Part shown: one piece after another, positions 11,847-38,442 of the stretch
Layout: the number at the start of each line of letters is the position of its first letter
Position numbering within the stretch: position 1 is the first letter of the stretch
Assembly (NCBI RefSeq): GCF_014195635.1
Contig: NZ_JACICC010000005.1
Location: 248,001-312,000, forward strand
Source of the DNA: Pseudochelatococcus contaminans
GTDB taxonomy: Bacteria; Pseudomonadota; Alphaproteobacteria; Rhizobiales; Beijerinckiaceae
Direction of reading: 5' to 3'
Length of the DNA stretch: 64,000 nt
Position numbers and translations under genes: made by a program
Notes under the pieces: generated by a model
What the model saw: only the letters and a program-made list of their open reading frames with translations
Told to the model about the DNA's origin: nothing
Databases searched by the model: none

Positions 11847-12854
11847 TTACTTCAGTGCCTCGCTGGTAATGTCGAGCGTGTAGGCGCCCACAGGCTCGCG
11901 CGTGATGACGGGATCGGAGCCGCCTCCGAGCAGGGTCTTGACGGTGCGCTCGTAATCCGCCACGTCGAGTGCGCCGTTCGATCCGGCGGTGAGCTTCGCC
12001 ACCTCGCGGGCCATGCGCTGCTGCTGCTGCTCCGTCTGCGCGCCGGATGCGTCGTTCTCAAGCACGATCTCGGCCGTTTCGTCCGGGTTTTCCTCGGCCC
12101 ATTTCCAGCCCTTCATCGACGCCCGCACGAAGCGCACGAGCTTGTCGCGGAAGGCCGCATCCTTCAGCCGATCCTCCAGCACGTAGAGGCCGTCTTCCAG
12201 CACGGCGACGCCTTCGTCCTCATATTTAAAGGTGACGAGGTCGCCCTCGGCAATGCCGGCGTCGATCACCTGCCCGTATTCGTTGTAGGTCATCGTGGAA
12301 ATACAGGCCGCCTGCTTTTGCAACAGCGGATCGACGTTGAAGCCCTGCTTCAGCACGGTGACACCCTCCGGGCCGCCATTCGTGCCGATGCCGAGGTGGT
12401 TCATCCAGGCGAGAAAGGGATATTCGTTGCCGAAGAACCAGACGCCCAGCGTCTTGCCGCGAAAATCCTCCGGCTTCGTGATGCCGCTTTCCTTCAGGCA
12501 GGTGAGCATCATGCCCGATGTCTTGAACGGCTGCGCGATATTGACCAGCGGCACGCCCTTTTCCCGCGTGGCGAGCGCGGAGGGCAGCCAGTCGACGATG
12601 ACATCCGCCCCGCCGCCCACGAGAACCTGCGGCGGCGCGATATCGGGACCGCCGGGCCTGATCTCGACGTCAAGGCCCTCCTCCTCGTAGAAGCCCTTGT
12701 CCTTCGCCACGTAATAGCCGCCGAACTGGGCCTGCGTCACCCATTTCAGTTGCAGCGTGAGCTTGTCGGCGGCCTGAGCCGGCAGCGCCGCCATCTGGGC
12801 TGCGAGCAGCGAGAACGCGCCGATGCGGATGATCCGTGCCAATCTGCTTTTCAT
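11847..12854 (-). CDS. Pyrimidine-type ABC transporter substrate-binding protein (NMT1/THI5-like)
   Basis: 335-residue periplasmic protein with signal peptide MKSRLARIIRIGAFSLLAAQ, cleaved near AQA-ADK. The mature start LTLQLKWVTQAQFGGYYVAKDKG is the NMT1/THI5 signature; AACISTMTYNEYG carries the CxxTYNE-type residues known from pyrimidine-binding (ThiY-like) members. GGGGAACAGG precedes the ATG. Last gene of the minus-strand transporter operon that diverges from rutR; location next to the rut genes implies uptake of uracil, thymine or a related pyrimidine. Ligand is inferred from context. Confidence 0.87.
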   Translation of the reverse strand: MKSRLARIIRIGAFSLLAAQMAALPAQAADKLTLQLKWVTQAQFGGYYVAKDKGFYEEEGLDVEIRPGGPDIAPPQVLVGGGADVIVDWLPSALATREKGVPLVNIAQPFKTSGMMLTCLKESGITKPEDFRGKTLGVWFFGNEYPFLAWMNHLGIGTNGGPEGVTVLKQGFNVDPLLQKQAACISTMTYNEYGQVIDAGIAEGDLVTFKYEDEGVAVLEDGLYVLEDRLKDAAFRDKLVRFVRASMKGWKWAEENPDETAEIVLENDASGAQTEQQQQRMAREVAKLTAGSNGALDVADYERTVKTLLGGGSDPVITREPVGAYTLDITSEALK

Positions 12855-12882: not shown

Positions 12883-13746
12883 TCAGGCGCGACCGCCGCG
12901 GTTCGACGGGTGCCAGAACGTCAAGGCGCGTCCAGTGAGTGCGACGAGACCGTAGAAGAGCGAGCCGACCACCGCCGCGACGGCGATTTCGGCCCAGACC
13001 ATGTCGATGTTGCTGCGCCCTACTTCCGTGGCGATGCGGAAGCCCATCCCGACCGTTGGCGTGCCGAAGAATTCGGCGACGATGGCGCCGATCAGCGCTA
13101 GCGTGGAGTTGATCTTCAAGGCGTTGAAGATAAACGGCGCGGCCGCCGGCAGGCGCAGCATCAGCATGGTCTGCCGCCAGTCCGCCGCGTAGGTGCGCAT
13201 GAGGTCGCGTTCCATGCGGCCCGCCGCCGCAAGCCCTTCGACGGCACTCACCAGCATCGGAAAGAAGGTGACGATGACCACCACGGCGACCTTCGACTGC
13301 CAGTCGAAGCCGAACCACATCACCATGATCGGGGCCACGCCCACCATCGGCAGCGCGGAGACGAGGTTGCCAATGGGCAGCAGGCCCCGCTGAAGGAATG
13401 GCGAGCGGTCGATGAGGATTGCCGCGACGAAGCCCGCGCCGCAGCCGATGATGTAGCCCGGCAGCACGGAGCGCAGGAACGTCTGCTCGAAATCCGCCCA
13501 CAGGACAGGCACCGACACGGCGAGCCGCGCGGCGATGGCGCTGGGCGGCGGCAGCAGGATCGGCGAGATGGCGAGTCCGCGCACCGTGCATTCCCACGCC
13601 ACCAGCACCGCGAGCCCGAACAGCGCCGGCACCGAAACACGCGCCGCCACCGCGCCGGTTGGCGTGGCGAAGGCATGGCTCACCAGCGCGCCGTTGACCG
13701 CCCAGGCGGCGATCCAGAAGGCGAGCGCGAAAACGAGATAGCCCAT
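12883..13746 (-). CDS. Pyrimidine-type ABC transporter permease 2
   Basis: 287 residues, inner membrane, with a hydrophobic N-terminus (LVFALAFWIAAWAVNGALV) and about six more spans. The coupling loop is LMRTYAADWRQTMLMLRLPAAAPFIFNAL. It starts two bases after the stop of the preceding permease, so both are translated together and likely form a heterodimer. Sequences of this type beside rutA are the usual replacement for the RutG permease in rhizobia and relatives (family knowledge). Confidence 0.88.
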   Translation of the reverse strand: MGYLVFALAFWIAAWAVNGALVSHAFATPTGAVAARVSVPALFGLAVLVAWECTVRGLAISPILLPPPSAIAARLAVSVPVLWADFEQTFLRSVLPGYIIGCGAGFVAAILIDRSPFLQRGLLPIGNLVSALPMVGVAPIMVMWFGFDWQSKVAVVVIVTFFPMLVSAVEGLAAAGRMERDLMRTYAADWRQTMLMLRLPAAAPFIFNALKINSTLALIGAIVAEFFGTPTVGMGFRIATEVGRSNIDMVWAEIAVAAVVGSLFYGLVALTGRALTFWHPSNRGGRA

Positions 13747-13748
13747 GA

Positions 13749-14633
13749 TCAGCGGCCCTCCATGCGTCTGAGAACGACCGATTGCACCAGCCCGACCAGC
13801 GCGACGAGACCGGCGCCGACCACGGCCGCCATCACCAGCGCCGACCAGATCTGCACGGTCTGGCCGTAATAGGAGCCGGACAGCAGCCGTGCCCCAAGCC
13901 CGGCCACCGCGCCGGTCGGCAACTCACCGACGATCGCCCCCACCAGCGCCGCCGCGACCGCGATCTTGAGCGAGGCGAAGACATAAGGCAGCGATGACGG
14001 CCACCGCACTTTCCAGAAGATCTGCGCCTTGCTGGCGCTGTACGTGCGCATCATATCCAGCAGCAGCCTGTCGGCGCTGCGCAGCCCGGTGACGGCCCCG
14101 ACCGCCACGGGAAAGAAGCTGAGATAGGCGGAAATCATCGCCTTGGGCAGCAGGCCGGTGATGCCGACCGCGTTCAGCACCACGATCACCATCGGCGCGA
14201 TGGCGATGATGGGAACTGTCTGGCTCGCAATGACCCACGGCATCAGCGAACTGTCGAGCACACGACTGTGGATCAGCGCGATGGCGAGCCCGATGCCGAG
14301 CAGGCTGCCGATGACGAAGCCCGCGAGCGCGGCCGACAGCGTGACGGAGGCGTGATAGATGAGACTGCGCTTCGAGGTGATGGCCTTGTTGACCGTCGTG
14401 TCCCACAATTCGGCGGCGATCTGGTGCGGCGCCGGCAGCACGGGCCGCGTCTGGCTGAATGTACGCGGCACGATTTCCGCGAAGCTGGGAGACATGCCGG
14501 CCCTCGCGGCCTGATCGCGCTCGAAAGGCGCGTTCATCACCACGACGAACACATGCCAGACGACGAGAATGGCAGCGACGACCACCAGCACCGGCAGGAT
14601 ACGCTCGCGCAGCAGTGACGTGGCTGCCCTCAT
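13749..14633 (-). CDS. Pyrimidine-type ABC transporter permease 1
   Basis: 294 residues from ATG 14631-14633; the frame is open much further upstream but only as antisense of the ATPase gene. First span LPVLVVVAAILVVWHVFVVVM, followed by a periplasmic loop of about 60 residues and five further spans. Coupling loop MMRTYSASKAQIFWKVRWPSSLPYVFAS, nearly the same as in the partner permease. ATG overlaps the ATPase stop (ATGA). Pairs with the permease at 12883-13746. Confidence 0.88.
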   Translation of the reverse strand: MRAATSLLRERILPVLVVVAAILVVWHVFVVVMNAPFERDQAARAGMSPSFAEIVPRTFSQTRPVLPAPHQIAAELWDTTVNKAITSKRSLIYHASVTLSAALAGFVIGSLLGIGLAIALIHSRVLDSSLMPWVIASQTVPIIAIAPMVIVVLNAVGITGLLPKAMISAYLSFFPVAVGAVTGLRSADRLLLDMMRTYSASKAQIFWKVRWPSSLPYVFASLKIAVAAALVGAIVGELPTGAVAGLGARLLSGSYYGQTVQIWSALVMAAVVGAGLVALVGLVQSVVLRRMEGR

Positions 14634-15427
14634 GCGTCGGCTCCCTGTGCGTGGCCAGCGACCAGTCCGGCGCGGACGCGGCGCGCGATTTCCAGGAACT
14701 CGGGCGTCTCGCGGATGTCGAGCGGCCTGTCGCGCGGCAGCGGCGAGGTGATGACGTCCACCACCCGTCCCGGCCGCGGACTCATGACGACGATGTGCGT
14801 CGACAGATAGACCGCCTCGGGAATGGAATGGGTGACGAAGCAGATCGTCTTGCCCGTCCGCTCCCACAATTGCAGGAGCTGCTCGTTGAGCCGGTCGCGG
14901 ACGATCTCGTCCAGCGCGCCGAACGGCTCGTCCATCAGCAGCAGGTCGGCATCGAAGGCCAGCGCCCGCGCGATCGACGCCCGCTGCTGCATACCCCCCG
15001 ACAATTGCCACGGATATTTGCGGCCGAAGCCTTGCAGATCCACCATCGCCAGCGCCTGCTCGATGCGCTGCTTCCGCTTGCTTTCGGGATAGCCCATGAT
15101 TTCCAGCGGCACGGCGATATTGGCCTCGATGGTGCGCCACGGCAGCAGCGCCGCCGCCTGAAAGACATAGCCGTAGGAGCGGTCCTTGCGGGCGTTTTCC
15201 GGCGTGGTGCCGTTGACCGTGATCTCGCCCGAGGTGTGCTGCTCCAGATCGGCGATGACACGCAGGAACGTCGTCTTGCCGCAGCCGGACGGGCCGATGA
15301 AGGACACGAAGTCGCCCTTCTTCACGTCCAGATCGACATCGGACAGCGCATGCACCGGGCCGTCTGCGGTGTGGTAAACGAGGCTGAGCTTGCGGGCGCG
15401 TATCACTGAAAATGTCGAGGCATTCAT
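14630..15427 (-). CDS. Pyrimidine-type ABC transporter ATP-binding protein
   Basis: 265 residues from ATG 15425-15427 (GGGAG upstream); an earlier in-frame start at 15499 would add an unlikely basic leader. Walker A GPSGCGKTTF, Q-loop FQAAALLPW, signature LSGGMQQRASIA, Walker B LLLMDEPFGALD and H-loop FVTHSIPEA are intact. First gene of the four-gene minus-strand operon. A sigma-54-type promoter lies about 190 bases upstream (15614-15630), so the transporter is probably switched on under nitrogen limitation together with rutA. Confidence 0.9.
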   Translation of the reverse strand: MNASTFSVIRARKLSLVYHTADGPVHALSDVDLDVKKGDFVSFIGPSGCGKTTFLRVIADLEQHTSGEITVNGTTPENARKDRSYGYVFQAAALLPWRTIEANIAVPLEIMGYPESKRKQRIEQALAMVDLQGFGRKYPWQLSGGMQQRASIARALAFDADLLLMDEPFGALDEIVRDRLNEQLLQLWERTGKTICFVTHSIPEAVYLSTHIVVMSPRPGRVVDVITSPLPRDRPLDIRETPEFLEIARRVRAGLVAGHAQGADA

Positions 15428-15613
15428 GGGCGGCTCCCTGTCGTGCGAACCGCACCGGGACGACGACGACCGATCGCGCGTGCGGCCGATGTCGTACACG
15501 GCGTTGATCCCGTCTTGCCCCCCGACATGCTGACGTTTATTCGATTCATGTTCTCGCTCGCTGCTGGTTCGGGTCCGCGCGATTGCCTGCCCGAATACGT
15601 CGCCGGAATATCA

Positions 15614-15630
15614 AGCAAGGTCCGTGCCGA
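15614..15630 (-). promoter_or_regulatory. Sigma-54 (-24/-12) promoter candidate for the pyrimidine transporter operon
   Basis: Read on the minus strand the element is TCGGCACGGACCTTGCT. The invariant GG (-24) and GC (-12) are exactly 10 bases apart, and it matches the sigma-54 consensus YTGGCACG-N4-TTGCW at all but one informative position (C for T before GG). It faces the ATPase gene at 15427. The perfect palindrome TCTGATCAGA directly abuts its upstream side (15631-15640) and could be a regulator contact. I did not find a convincing NtrC site. Confidence 0.55.
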
Positions 15631-15681
15631 TCTGATCAGAGCGCGTAAAAAATTTGATCCCGATATCAGGCGGGGAGACAG

Positions 15682-16353
15682 ATGTCAGACAGTGGAAGGC
15701 CAGCCGCGCCCCGGCGCACGCGCATTCAGGACGAGAAGGAGAACCTCATTCTCGAAGCCGCGCTCGACGTGTTCGCAAGCCATGGATACGGCGGCGCGAC
15801 GCTCGACCGGATCGCGGCCGCCGCCGGCCTGTCGAAGCCGAACCTGCTCTATTACTTCAGCGGCAAGGAGGCGATTCACAGCGCCCTGATCGCTCGTGTG
15901 CTCACCGGCTGGCTGGAGCCCTTGCGTGCCTTGCAGGCGGATGGCGACCCGCACACCGAAATCCGGTCCTACATCCGGCGCAAGCTGCTGATGTCGCGCG
16001 ACTACCCGCGGGAGAGCCGGCTGTTCGCCAACGAGATCCTGCAAGGCGCGCCCCGCATCGGGCCGGCGCTGGAGGGACCGTTGAAAGAACTGGTCGACGA
16101 GAAGGCCGCCGTCATTCGCGGCTGGGCGCGCGGGGGCCGGATCGCCCCCTGCGATCCCTACCACCTGATCTTCGCCATCTGGGCCACGACCCAGCACTAC
16201 GCGGATTTCGACGTGCAGGTGCGGGCCGTGCTGGGTGCGCCGGCGGCGGTCGAGACTCGCTATGAGGACGCGGCCCGCTTTCTGGAGCAGCTCTTCATCC
16301 ACGGCATCCTGCATGCCGGCAACGCTGCCGACAACGACTGCGGCAAAAACTGA
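15682..16353 (+). CDS. rutR: RutR, TetR-family repressor of pyrimidine catabolism
   Basis: 223 residues. Helix-turn-helix at residues about 35-55 (TLDRIAAAAGLSKPNLLYYF), followed by the RutR-type ligand domain with RDYPRESRLFANEILQGAPRI and HLIFAIWATTQHYADFDVQV, which closely parallel E. coli RutR as I remember it. In E. coli the protein binds uracil or thymine and releases TTGACCA-N2-TGGTCAA boxes. Here it sits between the divergent transporter operon and rutA. Two such boxes start at its own stop codon. ATG 15682 is preceded by GGGGAGACAG. Confidence 0.9.
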   Translation: MSDSGRPAAPRRTRIQDEKENLILEAALDVFASHGYGGATLDRIAAAAGLSKPNLLYYFSGKEAIHSALIARVLTGWLEPLRALQADGDPHTEIRSYIRRKLLMSRDYPRESRLFANEILQGAPRIGPALEGPLKELVDEKAAVIRGWARGGRIAPCDPYHLIFAIWATTQHYADFDVQVRAVLGAPAAVETRYEDAARFLEQLFIHGILHAGNAADNDCGKN

Positions 16354-16384
16354 CCAAACGATCAATTTTTTATCATTTGATCAA
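16350..16384. promoter_or_regulatory. Tandem RutR boxes
   Basis: Two 16-bp sites match TTGACCA-N2-TGGTCAA at 11 of 14 defined positions each: CTGACCAAACGATCAA (16350-16365, overlapping the rutR stop codon) and TTTATCATTTGATCAA (16369-16384). Their centres are 19 bp apart, roughly two helix turns. They lie about 130-165 bp upstream of the sigma-54 promoter of rutA. Matches were made by eye against the consensus recalled for E. coli RutR. Confidence 0.5.
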
Positions 16385-16514
16385 AAAAAGCGGCGCATAT
16401 CCCATCGCGGCAACCTCGCCTCCCCTGACGGACGGCCTGCCGCACCCCCCTCCGCATCCAGTCAAAGGCACGCTTCCCGGGGCAGATAACGCCTTCCGGC
16501 CACCGACTCTCCTT

Positions 16515-16531
16515 CTGGCACGCAAGTTGCA
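16515..16531 (+). promoter_or_regulatory. Sigma-54 (-24/-12) promoter of rutA
   Basis: CTGGCACGCAAGTTGCA fits the sigma-54 consensus YTGGCACG-N4-TTGCW completely, with GG and GC exactly 10 bases apart. It is 70 bp upstream of the rutA ATG; transcription should begin about 12 bases after the GC. E. coli rut is under nitrogen (NtrC) control, which agrees. An enhancer site for NtrC was not recognised in the 160 bp upstream. Confidence 0.72.
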
Positions 16532-16600
16532 AGACGATCGCCATCAAGGCCGCGCGCCGATGGCACGGTCGCTGTTCACAGGCTGCAAGGAGGAGTTACT

Positions 16601-17691
16601 ATGCAAGTCGGAGTCTTCATCCCGATCGGCAACAACGGCTGGCTGCTGTCCGAGAATGCGCCTCAGTACAAGCCAACCTTCGCTTTCAACCGCGAGATCA
16701 CGCTCAAGGCCGAGTCCTACGGGTTCGATTTTGCGCTGTCGATGATCAAGCTGCGCGGTTTCGGCGGCAAGACGGAGTTCTGGGACTACAATCTCGATTC
16801 CTTCACGCTGATGGCGGGACTTGCCGCCGTCACCAGCCGCATCCGCCTGTTCGCCACCGCCGCAACCCTCGTGATGCCGCCCGCCATCGTCGCGCGTATG
16901 GCCTCCACCATCGACTCCATTTCCGATGGCCGCTTCGGCGTCAACCTCGTGACCGGATGGCAGAAGCCGGAGTACTCGCAGATGGGGCTGTGGCCGGGCG
17001 ACGATTACTTCAGCCGGCGCTACGACTACCTCACCGAATACGCCACCATCCTGCGCGACCTGTGGGACACGGGCCGCAGCGACCTGAAGGGCGAGTTCTT
17101 CCAGATGGACGATTGCCGCGTGCTGCCGCGCCCGCAGGCCGATATGAAGCTCATCTGCGCCGGCTCATCGAACGCCGGCATGGAGTTCTCGGCACGGTTC
17201 GCGGACTACAATTTCTGCTTCGGCGTCGGCGTCAACACCCCCACGGCCTTCGCGCCCACCGTCGATCGCCTGCGCGCGCAAACCGACAAGACCGGCCGCA
17301 AGGTGGACTCGTTCGTCCTCTTCATGGTCATCGCCGACGAGACCGACGAGGCCGCCCGCGCGAAGTGGGAGAACTACAAGGCCGGCGCCGACGCCGAGGC
17401 CATCGCCTGGCTTGGGCTGCAAGGCGCCGCCGACACCAAATCCGGCAGCGATACCAACGTGCGTCAGATGGCCGATCCGGTTTCGGCGGTCAACATCAAC
17501 ATGGGCACGCTGGTCGGCTCCTACGCTTCGGTTGCGCGGATGCTCGACGAGGTCGCCACCGTCAACGACACCGGCGGCGTCATGCTCACCTTCGACGACT
17601 TCCTCAAGGGCATCGACGATTTCGGCACCCGCATCCAGCCGCTGATGAAGAGCCGCGCGCATGTCAGCCTTCCCGCGCAGGGAGCGGCGGC

Positions 17692-17695
<4 letters not shown>
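16601..17695 (+). CDS. rutA: RutA, flavin-dependent pyrimidine monooxygenase
   Basis: 364-residue luciferase-like FMN monooxygenase that opens the uracil ring between N3 and C4 to give ureidoacrylate (peroxyacrylate in some reports). The full RutA signature is present: [21 protein letters not shown] at the N-terminus, [35 protein letters not shown], and [14 protein letters not shown] near the end. AGGAGGAG precedes the ATG. First gene of a compact rut operon (stop overlaps the rutB start) under the sigma-54 promoter at 16515. It needs reduced FMN from RutF. Confidence 0.96.
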
Positions 17696-18429
<734 letters not shown>

Positions 18430-18456: not shown

Positions 18457-18846
18457 ATGCCCAAGACCGTTATCCTGCCGCCCGGCACCACGACGCCCAT
18501 CGCCCCCTTCTCGCCCGGCACACTCGCGGACGGCGTCGTCTATGTGTCGGGCACGCTCGCCTTCGACAAGGACAACAATATCGCCCATCCCGGCGATGCG
18601 GCGGGGCAGACCCGGCACATTCTGGAGACGATCAAATCCGTCATCGAGACGGCCGGCGGCACGCTGGCGGACGTCACCATGAACCACATCTTCATCACCG
18701 ACTGGAGCCACTACGGCGCGGTCAATACGGTCTATGCGGAATACTTCCCCGGCGACAAGCCCGCGCGCTACTGCGTGCAGGTGGGGCTGGTGAAGCCCGA
18801 GGCCGTGGTCGAGATCGCCACCGTCGCCCATATCGGCGGCCGCTGA
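18457..18846 (+). CDS. rutC: RutC, RidA-family 3-aminoacrylate deaminase
   Basis: 129 residues of the YjgF/YER057c/UK114 (RidA) family, acting on 3-aminoacrylate to give malonic semialdehyde and ammonia. Typical features: [21 protein letters not shown] at the N-terminus, [18 protein letters not shown], and the active-site arginine region [29 protein letters not shown] lies before the ATG. Together with RutD it handles the step that also runs spontaneously. Confidence 0.93.
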
Positions 18847-18913: not shown

Positions 18914-19459
18914 ATGCGGCTCACCGCTTCCCGTATCGACATATCCCCGCCGACGCCCGCCGTCAGCATGACGGACTATCGCGATGCGATGGCGCGCCTC
19001 GCGGCCGCCGTCACCATCGTGACCACGGATGGCGCGGCGGGCATGGCGGGCTTTGCCGCCACCGCCGTTTGCAGCGTCACCGACAGCCCGCCGACGCTGC
19101 TGGTCTGCCTCAACCGTAGCTCGTCGGCCCACGCCGCCGTCACCGCCAACCGCGTGCTGTGCGTCAACGTGCTGGACAACCGGCACGCGGCGCTCGGCAA
19201 CCTGTTCGGCGGTCGAACGCCGATGCCCGAACGCTTCGCGGCGGCGGCATGGCATCCGCTCGCAACCGGCGCGCCGGCGCTCGACGAGGCGCTGGTGTCG
19301 TTCGACTGCCGCATCGCATCGGCGAGCCATGTCGGCACCCACGACCTCCTCATCTGCGAGGTCATCGCCATTGACGGCGGCACGGGCGCCCGTCCGCTGC
19401 TCTACTTCCAGCGCAACTACCACGCCATTGCCGCCCCTCCGCCCGCTTCGGAGCACTGA
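18914..19459 (+). CDS. rutF: RutF, FMN reductase partner of RutA
   Basis: 181 residues of the flavin-reductase-like (HpaC/RutF) family, supplying FMNH2 to RutA from NADH. Conserved blocks: [23 protein letters not shown] (two joined parts), [39 protein letters not shown], and [25 protein letters not shown] 18914 has GGAG 8 bases upstream and adds about 18 residues before the family start; ATG 18968 is the alternative. Gene order here is A-B-C-F-D rather than the E. coli A-B-C-D-E-F-G. Confidence 0.92.
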
Positions 19460-19462
19460 TCC

Positions 19463-20275
19463 ATGCATGTCGACATCACCGGCCAGACCGGAGAAAACGC
19501 GCCCACCGTCCTGCTGTCGTCCGGGCTCGGCGGCGCGGGGGCCTACTGGACTCCGCAGACAGAGGCGCTGGGCGAGCATTTCCGCATCCTCACCTACGAT
19601 CATCGCGGCACTGGCCTGACGGGCGGCGAGGTGCCGGAAACGGGCGGTATCGGCGCGATGGCCGACGACGTGCTGGGCATCGCCCGCCGGCATGGCCTCT
19701 CGCAGTTCGACTTCGTCGGCCATGCGCTGGGTGGGTTGATCGGGCTCCATCTCGCGCTGCACCATCCCGATCTCGTCCGCCGGCTGGTGCTGATCAATGC
19801 ATGGAGCGCGGTCGATGCCCACACCGAACGCTGCTTCGACGTGCGCATCGATCTGCTGAAGCATGCGGGTGTGGCAGCGTTCGTGCGCGCGCAGCCACTG
19901 TTCCTCTATCCCGCCGCATGGATGGCGGACAACCCGCAGCGCCTCTCGCGCGAGGAAGCGCACGCGCTGGCGCATTTCCAGGGCCAGACGAACCTGCTGC
20001 GCCGGATAGAGGCCCTGCGCGCCTTCGACATCGACGCACAGTTGCACGCCATCACGACGCCGGCGCTGGTCATCGCAACGCAAGACGACCTGCTCGTGCC
20101 CCACGCCCGTTCCCTGCATCTGGCACAGGGACTGCCGAATGCGCGGCTGGCGCTGCTGCCGCGTGGCGGACATGCGGTGAACGTCACGCAGCCGGACCTG
20201 TTCAACCGCCTCCTGATCGATTTCCTCACCGCGCCCGATGGACACGACATTGAGAAAGCCGCGACCCATGGTTGA
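19463..20275 (+). CDS. rutD: RutD, aminoacrylate-processing alpha/beta hydrolase
   Basis: 270-residue alpha/beta hydrolase. The oxyanion region LLSSGLGGAGAYW and DHRGTGLTGG are clear. The nucleophile elbow reads VGHALGGLIG, with Ala where a serine nucleophile is usual; this loss is also known in E. coli RutD, so it is a family trait and not a mutation here. Base histidine in RGGHAVNVTQPDLFN. ATG is 3 bases after the rutF stop; its 3' end overlaps codA. Role: speeds removal of toxic aminoacrylate. Confidence 0.92.
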   Translation: MHVDITGQTGENAPTVLLSSGLGGAGAYWTPQTEALGEHFRILTYDHRGTGLTGGEVPETGGIGAMADDVLGIARRHGLSQFDFVGHALGGLIGLHLALHHPDLVRRLVLINAWSAVDAHTERCFDVRIDLLKHAGVAAFVRAQPLFLYPAAWMADNPQRLSREEAHALAHFQGQTNLLRRIEALRAFDIDAQLHAITTPALVIATQDDLLVPHARSLHLAQGLPNARLALLPRGGHAVNVTQPDLFNRLLIDFLTAPDGHDIEKAATHG

Positions 20276-21593
20276 TCTCGTCATCCGCGATGCCAGCCTG
20301 CCTGATGGCCGTAAAAACATCGACCTGCTCATCGCCGACGGGCGTATACTGGCCATCGGCCCGGGCCTCGCCGCGCAGGCGACGGCCGGCGAAACCATCG
20401 ATGCCAGCGGCTATCTGCTGTCGCCGCCATTCGTCGATCCCCATTTCCACCTCGACGCCACCCTGTCCCTGGGGCTGCCGCGCCTCAACCGCTCGGGAAC
20501 GCTGCTCGAAGGCATCGCCCTTTGGGGCGAGCTGCGTCCGACGCTGACGCGCGAGGCGCTGGTTGAGCGCGCGCTGCGTTACTGCCACCTCGCCATCTCG
20601 CAGGGTCTGCTGGCGATCCGCAGCCATGTCGATGTCAGCGATCCGCGCCTTGTCACGGCGGAAGCCTTGCTTGAGGTGCGCGATATCGTTTCCCCCTACA
20701 TCGACCTGCAACTCGTCGCCTTCCCCCAGGATGGCTACTACCGCGCGCCGCAGGCGGCATCCGCGCTCGAACGGGCCCTCGACATGGGCGTCGACGTCGT
20801 CGGCGGCATTCCGCATTTCGAGCGGACCATGGCCGACGCAGCGGCTTCCGTCACCGCATTGTGCCGTCTCGCAGCCGAACGGGGGCTGCCGGTCGACATG
20901 CACTGTGACGAAACCGACGATCCGCAGTCGCGTCACATCGAAACGCTGGCGGCGGAGACAATCCGCTTCGGCCTGCATCGACGTGTGGCCGCGTCACACC
21001 TCACCTCCATGCATTCCATGGACAACTACTATGTGTCCAAGCTCATTCCGCTGATGGCGGAAGCGGAAATCAGCGTCATCCCCAACCCGCTGATCAACAT
21101 CATGTTGCAGGGCCGCCACGACAGCTACCCGAAGCGCCGCGGACTGACGCGCGTGCGCGAACTGATGGATGCCGGCATCACCGTCGGCTTCGGCCACGAC
21201 TGCGTGATGGACCCCTGGTACACGATGGGTTCCGGCGACATGCTGGAAGTGGCGCACATGGCCGTGCATGTCGCCCAGATGGCAAGCGTGGAAGACCGGC
21301 ATCGGGCATTCGACGCCATCACGGTGAATTCCGCGCGCATCATGGGGCTCGAAGGCTATGGGCTGGAACCCGGATGCAACGCCGACCTCGTGCTCCTGCA
21401 AGCGCGCGACCCGCTGGAGGCGATCCGCCTCAAAGCCACCCGTCTCGTCGTCATCCGCCGGGGGACGGTGATCGCCCGCGCGCAGCCGCGTGTCAGCACG
21501 CTCACCCTCGGCACGGACACCCGCACCGTCAACGGCGCCGACTACGCGCCTTTTTCCGCCGGACCATCTCCCTCACCCATGCACAAGGACTGA
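20268..21593 (+). CDS. codA: Cytosine deaminase (CodA-like amidohydrolase)
   Basis: 441 residues from ATG 20268 (overlaps the rutD stop by 8 bases); ATG 20238 in frame would give a 10-residue longer form. Closely follows E. coli CodA: PPFVDPHFHLDATLSLGLPR (first metal HxH), IRSHVDVSDPRL, LQLVAFPQDGYY, VDMHCDETDDPQSRH, VAASHLTSMHSMD, and FGHDCVMDPWYTMGSGDML with the metal/catalytic Asp. Converts cytosine to uracil plus ammonia, feeding RutA directly. Its translational overlap with rutD makes it part of the rut operon, an addition not found in the E. coli operon. Confidence 0.9.
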   Translation: MVDLVIRDASLPDGRKNIDLLIADGRILAIGPGLAAQATAGETIDASGYLLSPPFVDPHFHLDATLSLGLPRLNRSGTLLEGIALWGELRPTLTREALVERALRYCHLAISQGLLAIRSHVDVSDPRLVTAEALLEVRDIVSPYIDLQLVAFPQDGYYRAPQAASALERALDMGVDVVGGIPHFERTMADAAASVTALCRLAAERGLPVDMHCDETDDPQSRHIETLAAETIRFGLHRRVAASHLTSMHSMDNYYVSKLIPLMAEAEISVIPNPLINIMLQGRHDSYPKRRGLTRVRELMDAGITVGFGHDCVMDPWYTMGSGDMLEVAHMAVHVAQMASVEDRHRAFDAITVNSARIMGLEGYGLEPGCNADLVLLQARDPLEAIRLKATRLVVIRRGTVIARAQPRVSTLTLGTDTRTVNGADYAPFSAGPSPSPMHKD

Positions 21594-37782: not shown

Positions 37783-38442
37783 TTGGTTCGTTTCGAGAAT
37801 GTCGGTCTGCGTTACGGCATGGGGCCGGAGATCCTGCGGGATCTGACTTTTTCCATAGAGCCGCGATCCTTCCAGTTTCTCACCGGCCCGTCAGGCGCCG
37901 GTAAAACCACCCTGCTTCGGCTCATCCTGTTGTCGCTCAAGCCAACACGCGGGCTGGTATCGCTGTTCGGGCGCGACATCTCCACGATTACCGGGCCGGA
38001 ACTCTCCGCCATGCGCCGGCGCATGGGGATTGTGTTTCAGGACTTCCGCCTGCTCGACCATCTGACGACGTTCGAGAACGTCGCCCTGCCTCTGCGTGTG
38101 CAGGGCAAGGAAGAGGCGCAGTATCGCGCGGAGGTCGTGGAACTGTTGCGCTGGGTCGGACTTGGCGACCGGATGCACGTTTTGCCGCCGGTGCTTTCAG
38201 GCGGTGAAAAGCAGCGTGCCGCCATTGCCCGCGCCCTAATTTCCCGCCCGGAACTGCTGCTCGCCGACGAGCCGACGGGCAACGTCGATCCCGCGCTGGC
38301 GCGCCGGTTGCTGCGCCTTTTCGTCGAGCTGAATCGCCTCGGCACCTCTGTCATCATCGCCACTCACGATCTGACGCTGATGGATCTCGTCGACGCGCGC
38401 CGCTTCGTGCTTGGCGACGGCCGTCTCCATATTTTTGACTGA
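37783..38442 (+). CDS. ftsE: Cell-division ATP-binding protein FtsE
   Basis: 219 residues from TTG 37783, which gives the family start MVRFENVGLRYG and lies 10 bases after GGGGAG; TTG 37774 is an alternative. Walker A GPSGAGKTTLL, Q-loop FQDFRLLDHL, signature LSGGEKQRAAIA, Walker B LLADEPTGNVD, H-loop ATHDLTLMD. With FtsX it controls periplasmic amidases at the septum. The 286-bp gap from hemB shows only a small GCGGC/GCCGC stem near 37743. Confidence 0.92.
   Translation: MVRFENVGLRYGMGPEILRDLTFSIEPRSFQFLTGPSGAGKTTLLRLILLSLKPTRGLVSLFGRDISTITGPELSAMRRRMGIVFQDFRLLDHLTTFENVALPLRVQGKEEAQYRAEVVELLRWVGLGDRMHVLPPVLSGGEKQRAAIARALISRPELLLADEPTGNVDPALARRLLRLFVELNRLGTSVIIATHDLTLMDLVDARRFVLGDGRLHIFD

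Follow-up and report, generated by a model that had tools for sequence, protein, structure and literature searches.

A sigma-54-type promoter with tandem repressor boxes upstream of rutA in Pseudochelatococcus contaminans, and a probable weaker sigma-54 element facing a divergent ABC transporter operon

One of the closest described counterparts of the locus examined here is the rutABCDEFG operon of Escherichia coli K-12, in which a sigma-54 element (TGGCATCCGCTTTGCA) precedes rutA, a repressor box lies 80 bp upstream of this element, NtrC-like sites are found at 103 and 124 bp, and the regulator gene is adjacent. In published work, the sequence CTGGCATCCGCTTTGCA at E. coli rutA lies beneath a sigma-54 ChIP-seq peak (PMC4591121), the rutA/rutR spacer is among the regions selected by RpoN in vitro (PMC8743547), and expression of rut is NtrC-dependent (PMC10891134). 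RutR regulons have been described for 68 genomes with taxon-specific motifs, and the site lists of that work may hold some of the boxes presented below (PMC5343134). A further parallel is offered by synthetic NtrC/sigma-54 enhancers in which a TetR-family site is placed between the NtrC site and the sigma-54 promoter; these are engineered constructs, and the natural test concerned Vibrio qrr loops, which have no repressor box (PMC4740811). Among open-licence papers, searched by title and abstract opening, none dealt with a tandem RutR operator or with sigma-54 control of the ABC transporter described here.

In the current study, a stretch of 64,000 nucleotides (the window) from the 4.1 Mb genome of Pseudochelatococcus contaminans was analysed (Table 1). 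An ABC transporter operon is divergent from a TetR-family regulator gene, and the rut genes lie downstream of the regulator. The locus differs from that of E. coli in that the regulator stands in tandem with rutA and belongs to another clade (that of the Pyd-type, or reductive pathway, loci, a label of our own), in that it has two strong boxes, at 147 and 166 bp from the sigma-54 element, as against a single good one in E. coli with no more than a weak companion (9 of 14), in that it has no NtrC-like site above chance, and in that an ABC transporter with its own probable sigma-54 element takes the place of RutG. The rutA promoters of Rhizobiaceae and Aurantimonadaceae share with the window the sigma-54 element, the upstream boxes and, in many cases, a pair of boxes 19 bp apart; unlike the window, most have boxes at 67-70 and/or 87-90 bp and have no regulator match within the flanks examined.

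Table 1. Features of the rut/transporter locus, with positions in the window
Feature	Position	Strand	Basis
NMT1/THI5-like substrate-binding protein	11847..12854	-	Pfam NMT1
ABC permease 2	12883..13746	-	Pfam BPD_transp_1
ABC permease 1	13749..14630	-	query stretch; coordinates approximate at start
ABC transporter ATPase, transporter operon gene 1	14630..15427	-	reading frame, profile matches
Probable sigma-54 element, ABC transporter operon, one mismatch (-26 C)	15614..15630	-	consensus match, matrix, orthologues
TetR-family regulator, RutR/YcdC type, Pyd-type clade (provisional)	15682..16353	+	profile matches and tree
Predicted distal operator box CTGACCAAACGATCAA, 2 mismatches (12 of 14)	16350..16365	.	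overlaps regulator stop codon
Predicted proximal operator box TTTATCATTTGATCAA, 1 mismatch (13 of 14)	16369..16384	.	19 bp from distal box
Sigma-54 -24/-12 element, rutA operon	16515..16531	+	consensus match, matrix rank, orthologue conservation
rutA	16601..17695	+	TIGR03612, 701 bits (cut-off 498)
rutB-like isochorismatase-fold amidohydrolase	17692..18429	+	Pfam Isochorismatase; start codon from sequence
rutC	18457..18846	+	TIGR03610, 235 bits (cut-off 169)
rutF-like flavin reductase	18914..19459	+	TIGR03615, 242 bits (just below cut-off 255)
rutD	19463..20275	+	TIGR03611, 373 bits (cut-off 238)
Cytosine deaminase, overlapping rutD end	20238..21593	+	NF005748, 776 bits (cut-off 438)

The rutB-like gene is 64-86% identical to genes that follow rutA in other rut operons. 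A pyrimidine role of the ABC transporter is supported by its gene context in several lineages, since in two Methylobacteriaceae loci (L062, L075) the rut genes are followed by the same transporter, while at a third locus (L231) it adjoins a regulator and a dihydropyrimidinase gene. Neither the regulator, at E <= 1e-40, nor rutA, at E <= 1e-120, was matched in two genomes of the same genus (G001, G002), from which it follows that the cluster is patchily distributed and that its regulation may be young.

An earlier note on this DNA had described a full-match sigma-54 element at rutA and a one-mismatch element on the opposite strand facing the transporter operon, both with a ten-base GG-GC spacing, and this description holds for each. 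The rutA element reads CTGGCACGCAAGTTGCA and has no mismatch to YTGGCACGN4TTGCW, which we take to be the sigma-54 consensus, with GG at 16517-16518 and GC at 16529-16530. A matrix scan of both strands ranked it first in the 64 kb at 19.4 bits (bit scores of this matrix are relative), and none of 5000 dinucleotide shuffles of its own spacer equalled this score. Among the 123 other regions examined upstream of rutA or rutA-like genes, 71 have an element of at least 12 bits and 52 have none of that strength. The 123 comprise 80 regions from the best of 538 confirmed candidates, a single E. coli K-12 region and 42 regions from other genomes, these last including rutA-like genes down to 53% identity; as four pairs of the 123 are identical, 119 sequences are distinct. 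In the first rutA set (81 regions including the window), the element was found in 53, as against one in reversed, 0.85 in shuffled and none in antisense sequence; a second copy of the window (L233) was left out of one of the comparisons. Elements of this type occur across alpha-, beta- and gammaproteobacteria. It is near certain, as a matter of sequence class, that a sigma-54 promoter precedes rutA, and given the elements of its orthologues and the sigma-54 ChIP-seq, RpoN and NtrC reports for E. coli it is a promoter of a known kind. Two more distant rutA-like genes (64% identity) in other members of the same bacterial family, at L269 and L272, have elements of 14.3 and 15.1 bits and no clear repressor box.

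A RutR-type operator does lie upstream of rutA. Matched to TTGAYCANNTGRTCAA, which we presume to be the RutR consensus, the window contains 14 sites with at most three mismatches compared to 5.0 expected, and the two predicted boxes of Table 1 fall between the regulator gene and rutA. The proximal box is one of only three places in the genome with at most one mismatch, while at most two mismatches are found at 46 places, compared to 13 in the backward control. In the transporter spacer no box with two or fewer mismatches is present; the best candidates there (10 of 14, at 15624 and 15654) were rejected, as 13 of 80 shuffled regions reach that score. Since the boxes occur on the rutA side only, the role of substrate check that the earlier note had assigned to RutR is visible for rutA alone, and the transporter operon is not visibly under the repressor.

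The two boxes form a tandem pair whose spacing recurs across the sigma-54 rutA promoters of alpha-, beta- and gammaproteobacteria, and this recurring 19-bp pair of predicted operators is new here and the most interesting result of the analysis. When rutA promoters are taken whose element scores 10 bits or more, the pair (both boxes at least 10 of 14) is present in 26 loci, namely the window and 25 others, and in 23 of the 25 the proximal box lies 68-72 bp upstream of the element start, the exceptions being L053 (58 bp) and L130 (80 bp). The 147 and 166 bp of the window compare with 68 and 87 bp in most pair-bearing relatives, so that its pair sits 79 bp further out. Of all box pairs at this threshold, 26 of 29 are spaced 19 bp. 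At 19 bp to either side of the best box, 30 of 83 loci have another box of 9 of 14 or better, compared to none or one at each of eight neighbouring offsets; the share is 26 of 60 where a sigma-54 element is present and 4 of 23 where it is not, and more than half of the loci, E. coli included, have no good second box. These counts are not independent, as many loci are close kin, and one locus with its box downstream of the element (L266) was excluded from the spacing counts. The cut-offs employed (12 and 10 bits; 9, 10 and 11 of 14; 11-12 of 15) were set while viewing the data.

Distances of 58, 67-70, 80 and 87-91 bp from the best box to the promoter in 62 loci had at first been read as steps of the DNA turn, on the basis of a Rayleigh value of 0.86 at 10.5 bp and seven changes of class on the RutA tree. 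This reading of helical phasing was withdrawn, since 68 and 87-89 bp for the most part represent the proximal and distal box of the same pair, and the true shifts besides that of the window (L053 by -10, L130 by +12 and the E. coli group by +12) are too few to establish phasing. Rhizobium rutA promoters (L083, L085, L088, L093, L095, L122 and kin) also have a recurring GATCAAAAA-type motif, often after a TTGAY-like half site, which lies further upstream than the boxes, at some 140-148 bp from the sigma-54 element.

The regulator gene had been named rutR in the earlier note, a name that has to be corrected. The protein scores below the cut-offs of both RutR models (TIGR03613, 240 against 368; NF011584, 214 against 230), and in a quick tree of 88 sequences with long branches E. 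coli RutR lies across a split with support of 97. The window regulator falls instead in a set of five sequences (support 99) with four regulators that are not beside rutA, there being no rutA match within the flanks examined. In the nearest four Pyd clusters the regulator is 63-73% identical, and in the Pyd loci tested its neighbours are dihydropyrimidinase, PreA, carbamoylase-family amidase or aminotransferase genes, unlike the window with its rutA; PreA, carbamoylase-family and aminotransferase genes are among those beside the regulators on the window's side of the tree. The Pyd clusters of G021, G058 and G020 further resemble the window in having the same transporter divergent from a regulator of its family. 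Two Aureimonas rutA loci (L063, L065) likewise have a regulator from this side of the tree. The tree omits short matches, duplicate sequences, sequences interrupted by stops, and L036, L037 and L043; L231 and L232 repeat two of the omitted rows, so that the G058 and G020 regulators are absent from it. Strictly speaking, then, the protein is no RutR; it groups with the regulators of Pyd-type loci, a placement that is provisional because the branches are long.

Concerning the transporter operon, its element (15630-15614, minus strand) reads TCGGCACGGACCTTGCT, with a single consensus mismatch, C for T at -26, and the same ten bases between GG and GC as at rutA. It ranks third in the 64 kb at 13.9 bits, a score equalled by 3 of 5000 dinucleotide shuffles of its own spacer. 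The regions used for comparison numbered 82, consisting of the window, one from each of 76 genomes, three relatives that share the divergent order, and two loci of Methylobacteriaceae; the 76 were drawn from 178 other genomes with a match, 29 as the best-scoring and 47 chosen manually before scanning, for the most part one from each genus. Two regions without a usable start (L196, L230) were dropped, and L230, which has the same divergent order, is counted only among the three relatives of that order. In the resulting 80 regions, an element of at least 12 bits was found in nine including the window, compared to 0.96 in shuffled, none in reversed and one in antisense sequence; put otherwise, it precedes 8 of 79 transporter orthologues examined where about one is expected, with the caveat that the operon may begin with a gene other than the ATPase in some genomes. 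Of the three same-order relatives, one has an element of 17.3 bits facing the ATPase gene, one (L230) has an element of 11.1 bits and one has none of at least 9 bits. Sigma-54 elements would therefore seem to have been put at the transporter in some lineages, and not in most of the regions examined. From the -12 C to the ATPase start codon there are 188 bases, and the transcript leader would be long, at about 175 bases.

Such matches have to be set against their background. Sites fitting TGGCACGN4TTGCA with at most three mismatches number 73 in the window where 80.7 are expected and so show no enrichment, and the numbers at higher scores are small, with six sites of at least 12 bits against four in the reversed sequence and three of at least 13.8 bits against one. 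Across the genome, YGGCRCGN4TTGCW, which fits both window sites, has 20 matches against 10 in the backward control, and TGGCACN5TTGC has 15 against 7; this twofold excess implies that about half of such sites taken anywhere are due to chance, and it is the position upstream of a gene that lifts the transporter site above this background. Elsewhere in the same genome a T-type sigma-54-like element precedes dctA, a classical sigma-54 gene, and a permease gene is preceded by one that has C at -26.

The genome contains a single rpoN gene and seven strong sigma-54 activator domains, NtrC (TIGR01818, 693 bits, cut-off 559) and NtrX being among those above cut-offs. The NtrC-site consensus applied is of the E. 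coli type, and most alphaproteobacterial rutA promoters fail it too. The upstream scan for NtrC sites advised by the earlier note gave nothing above chance: the best site before the rutA element scores 8.5 of 15, under the shuffled mean of 9.4, and the best before the transporter element scores 10.0, a value matched by 31% of shuffles. Nor did the transporter elements of 11 relatives have an NtrC-like site above chance, the best being that of L062, which 9% of shuffles reach. Among the 52 relatives with an element in the first rutA set, an NtrC-like site of at least 11 is present in 20 of 24 beta- and gammaproteobacterial loci versus 3 of 28 alphaproteobacterial loci, 25 of which thus have none. 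The lack of such a site here is therefore usual for alphaproteobacteria and compatible with control by NtrC, the link to nitrogen being a presumed one. The 62 loci with both element and box have 55 NtrC-like sites (at least 11), of which 53 fall between 92 and 134 bp upstream of the element, compared to 6.6 given by shuffles over the whole 200-bp stretch, and all 55 lie upstream of the best box. These spacing counts are descriptive, as they come from related sequences that are mostly of beta- and gammaproteobacteria.

Based on these findings, the following arrangement is favoured, with some confidence. The rut operon would be transcribed from the sigma-54 promoter upstream of rutA and the divergent ABC transporter operon probably from a weaker sigma-54 promoter, the element of which we are inclined, with slightly more reserve, to regard as being in actual use. 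Sigma-54 polymerase would wait at these promoters for an enhancer-binding protein to open them, in all likelihood NtrC when nitrogen is limiting, while the TetR-family regulator would bind the tandem boxes at 16350-16384 and keep rutA off until a pyrimidine ligand frees it. As the boxes of relatives sit between the NtrC-like sites and the sigma-54 promoter, the repressor is presumed to hinder contact between activator and promoter across the loop; this reading follows the order of sites in the synthetic enhancers (PMC4740811). The earlier note had gone further in proposing that uptake and ring opening are switched on together by nitrogen limitation: the two sigma-54 elements and the presence of rpoN and ntrC are consistent with this, and in view of the missing NtrC sites joint nitrogen switching rests on analogy.

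That the transporter match is due to chance, with a sigma-54 promoter at rutA only and the transporter operon read from a sigma-70-type promoter, is a possibility of some substance, though we doubt it. It would account for the merely twofold genome excess of the pattern, for the 71 of 80 transporter regions that have no element of at least 12 bits and for the long distance to the start codon; it is harder to reconcile with a score that so few shuffles reach and with elements of at least 11 bits in two of the three same-order relatives, and the transporter spacer has no sigma-70 consensus match, in a scan that covers alphaproteobacterial promoters poorly. With the transporter element read as probably functional, the transporter half of the arrangement is a plausible new variant, and the locus is one where uptake and degradation may both be under sigma-54 control with repressor boxes at degradation only. 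An activator other than NtrC, from among the seven clear sigma-54 activators of the genome, is the least likely of the alternatives weighed here. The choice of seven strong domains, NtrX included, and the want of an NtrC site above chance would suit it, against which stand the NtrC-like sites that relatives, mostly beta- and gammaproteobacteria, have 92-134 bp upstream of the element, and the NtrC dependence stated for rut of E. coli (PMC10891134).

The outward position of the boxes admits another explanation, which we hold to be rather unlikely, namely that rutA has two promoters, the sigma-54 promoter and a housekeeping promoter that overlaps the tandem boxes and is directly repressed, the window being a hybrid of the Rhizobium layout and a Methylobacterium layout with the regulator upstream in the same direction, a box and no sigma-54 element. 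Besides the shift of 79 bp relative to most relatives, the Methylobacterium-type rutA loci speak for it, as 18 of 21 (18 of the 21 being distinct) have a box of at least 11 of 14 and none has a sigma-54 element of at least 12 bits (L062, L066, L068-L077, L079, L087, L103, L110, L116, L234-L236 and L267; the identity of the L075 and L235 sequences places Methylobacterium in the family of the window). The boxes themselves, however, have no sigma-70 consensus match, and the sole such match in 15400-16620 (16575-16602, 9 of 12) falls on the rutA start codon. A more specific proposal may be made, tentatively and as one we would not yet expect to hold in full: that the rutA promoter is a natural loop-interrupting switch in alpha-, beta- and gammaproteobacteria, in which a 19-bp pair at a fixed distance between NtrC enhancer and promoter would allow two repressor dimers to quench the loop, as opposed to blocking the polymerase, and that in the window this pair was displaced outward by 79 bp once a Pyd-type regulator had taken control. 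If true, it would be the natural counterpart of the synthetic TetR/NtrC/sigma-54 enhancers, and the recurring two-box geometry between enhancer and promoter makes a designed mechanism testable in nature.

Two further sites were noted. The second-best sigma-54-like match of the window (38297-38312, plus strand, 14.8 bits) lies within a 222-codon frame; some 140 bases further on there follows a 331-codon frame, which has no NCBIfam match at 1e-40. The element with C at -26 before a permease gene (L180, G000:C8:4876-4891) is located about 5 kb from an enhancer-binding protein gene, and the nearest NCBIfam family of the permease, at a score below cut-off, is the urea-carboxylase-system permease.
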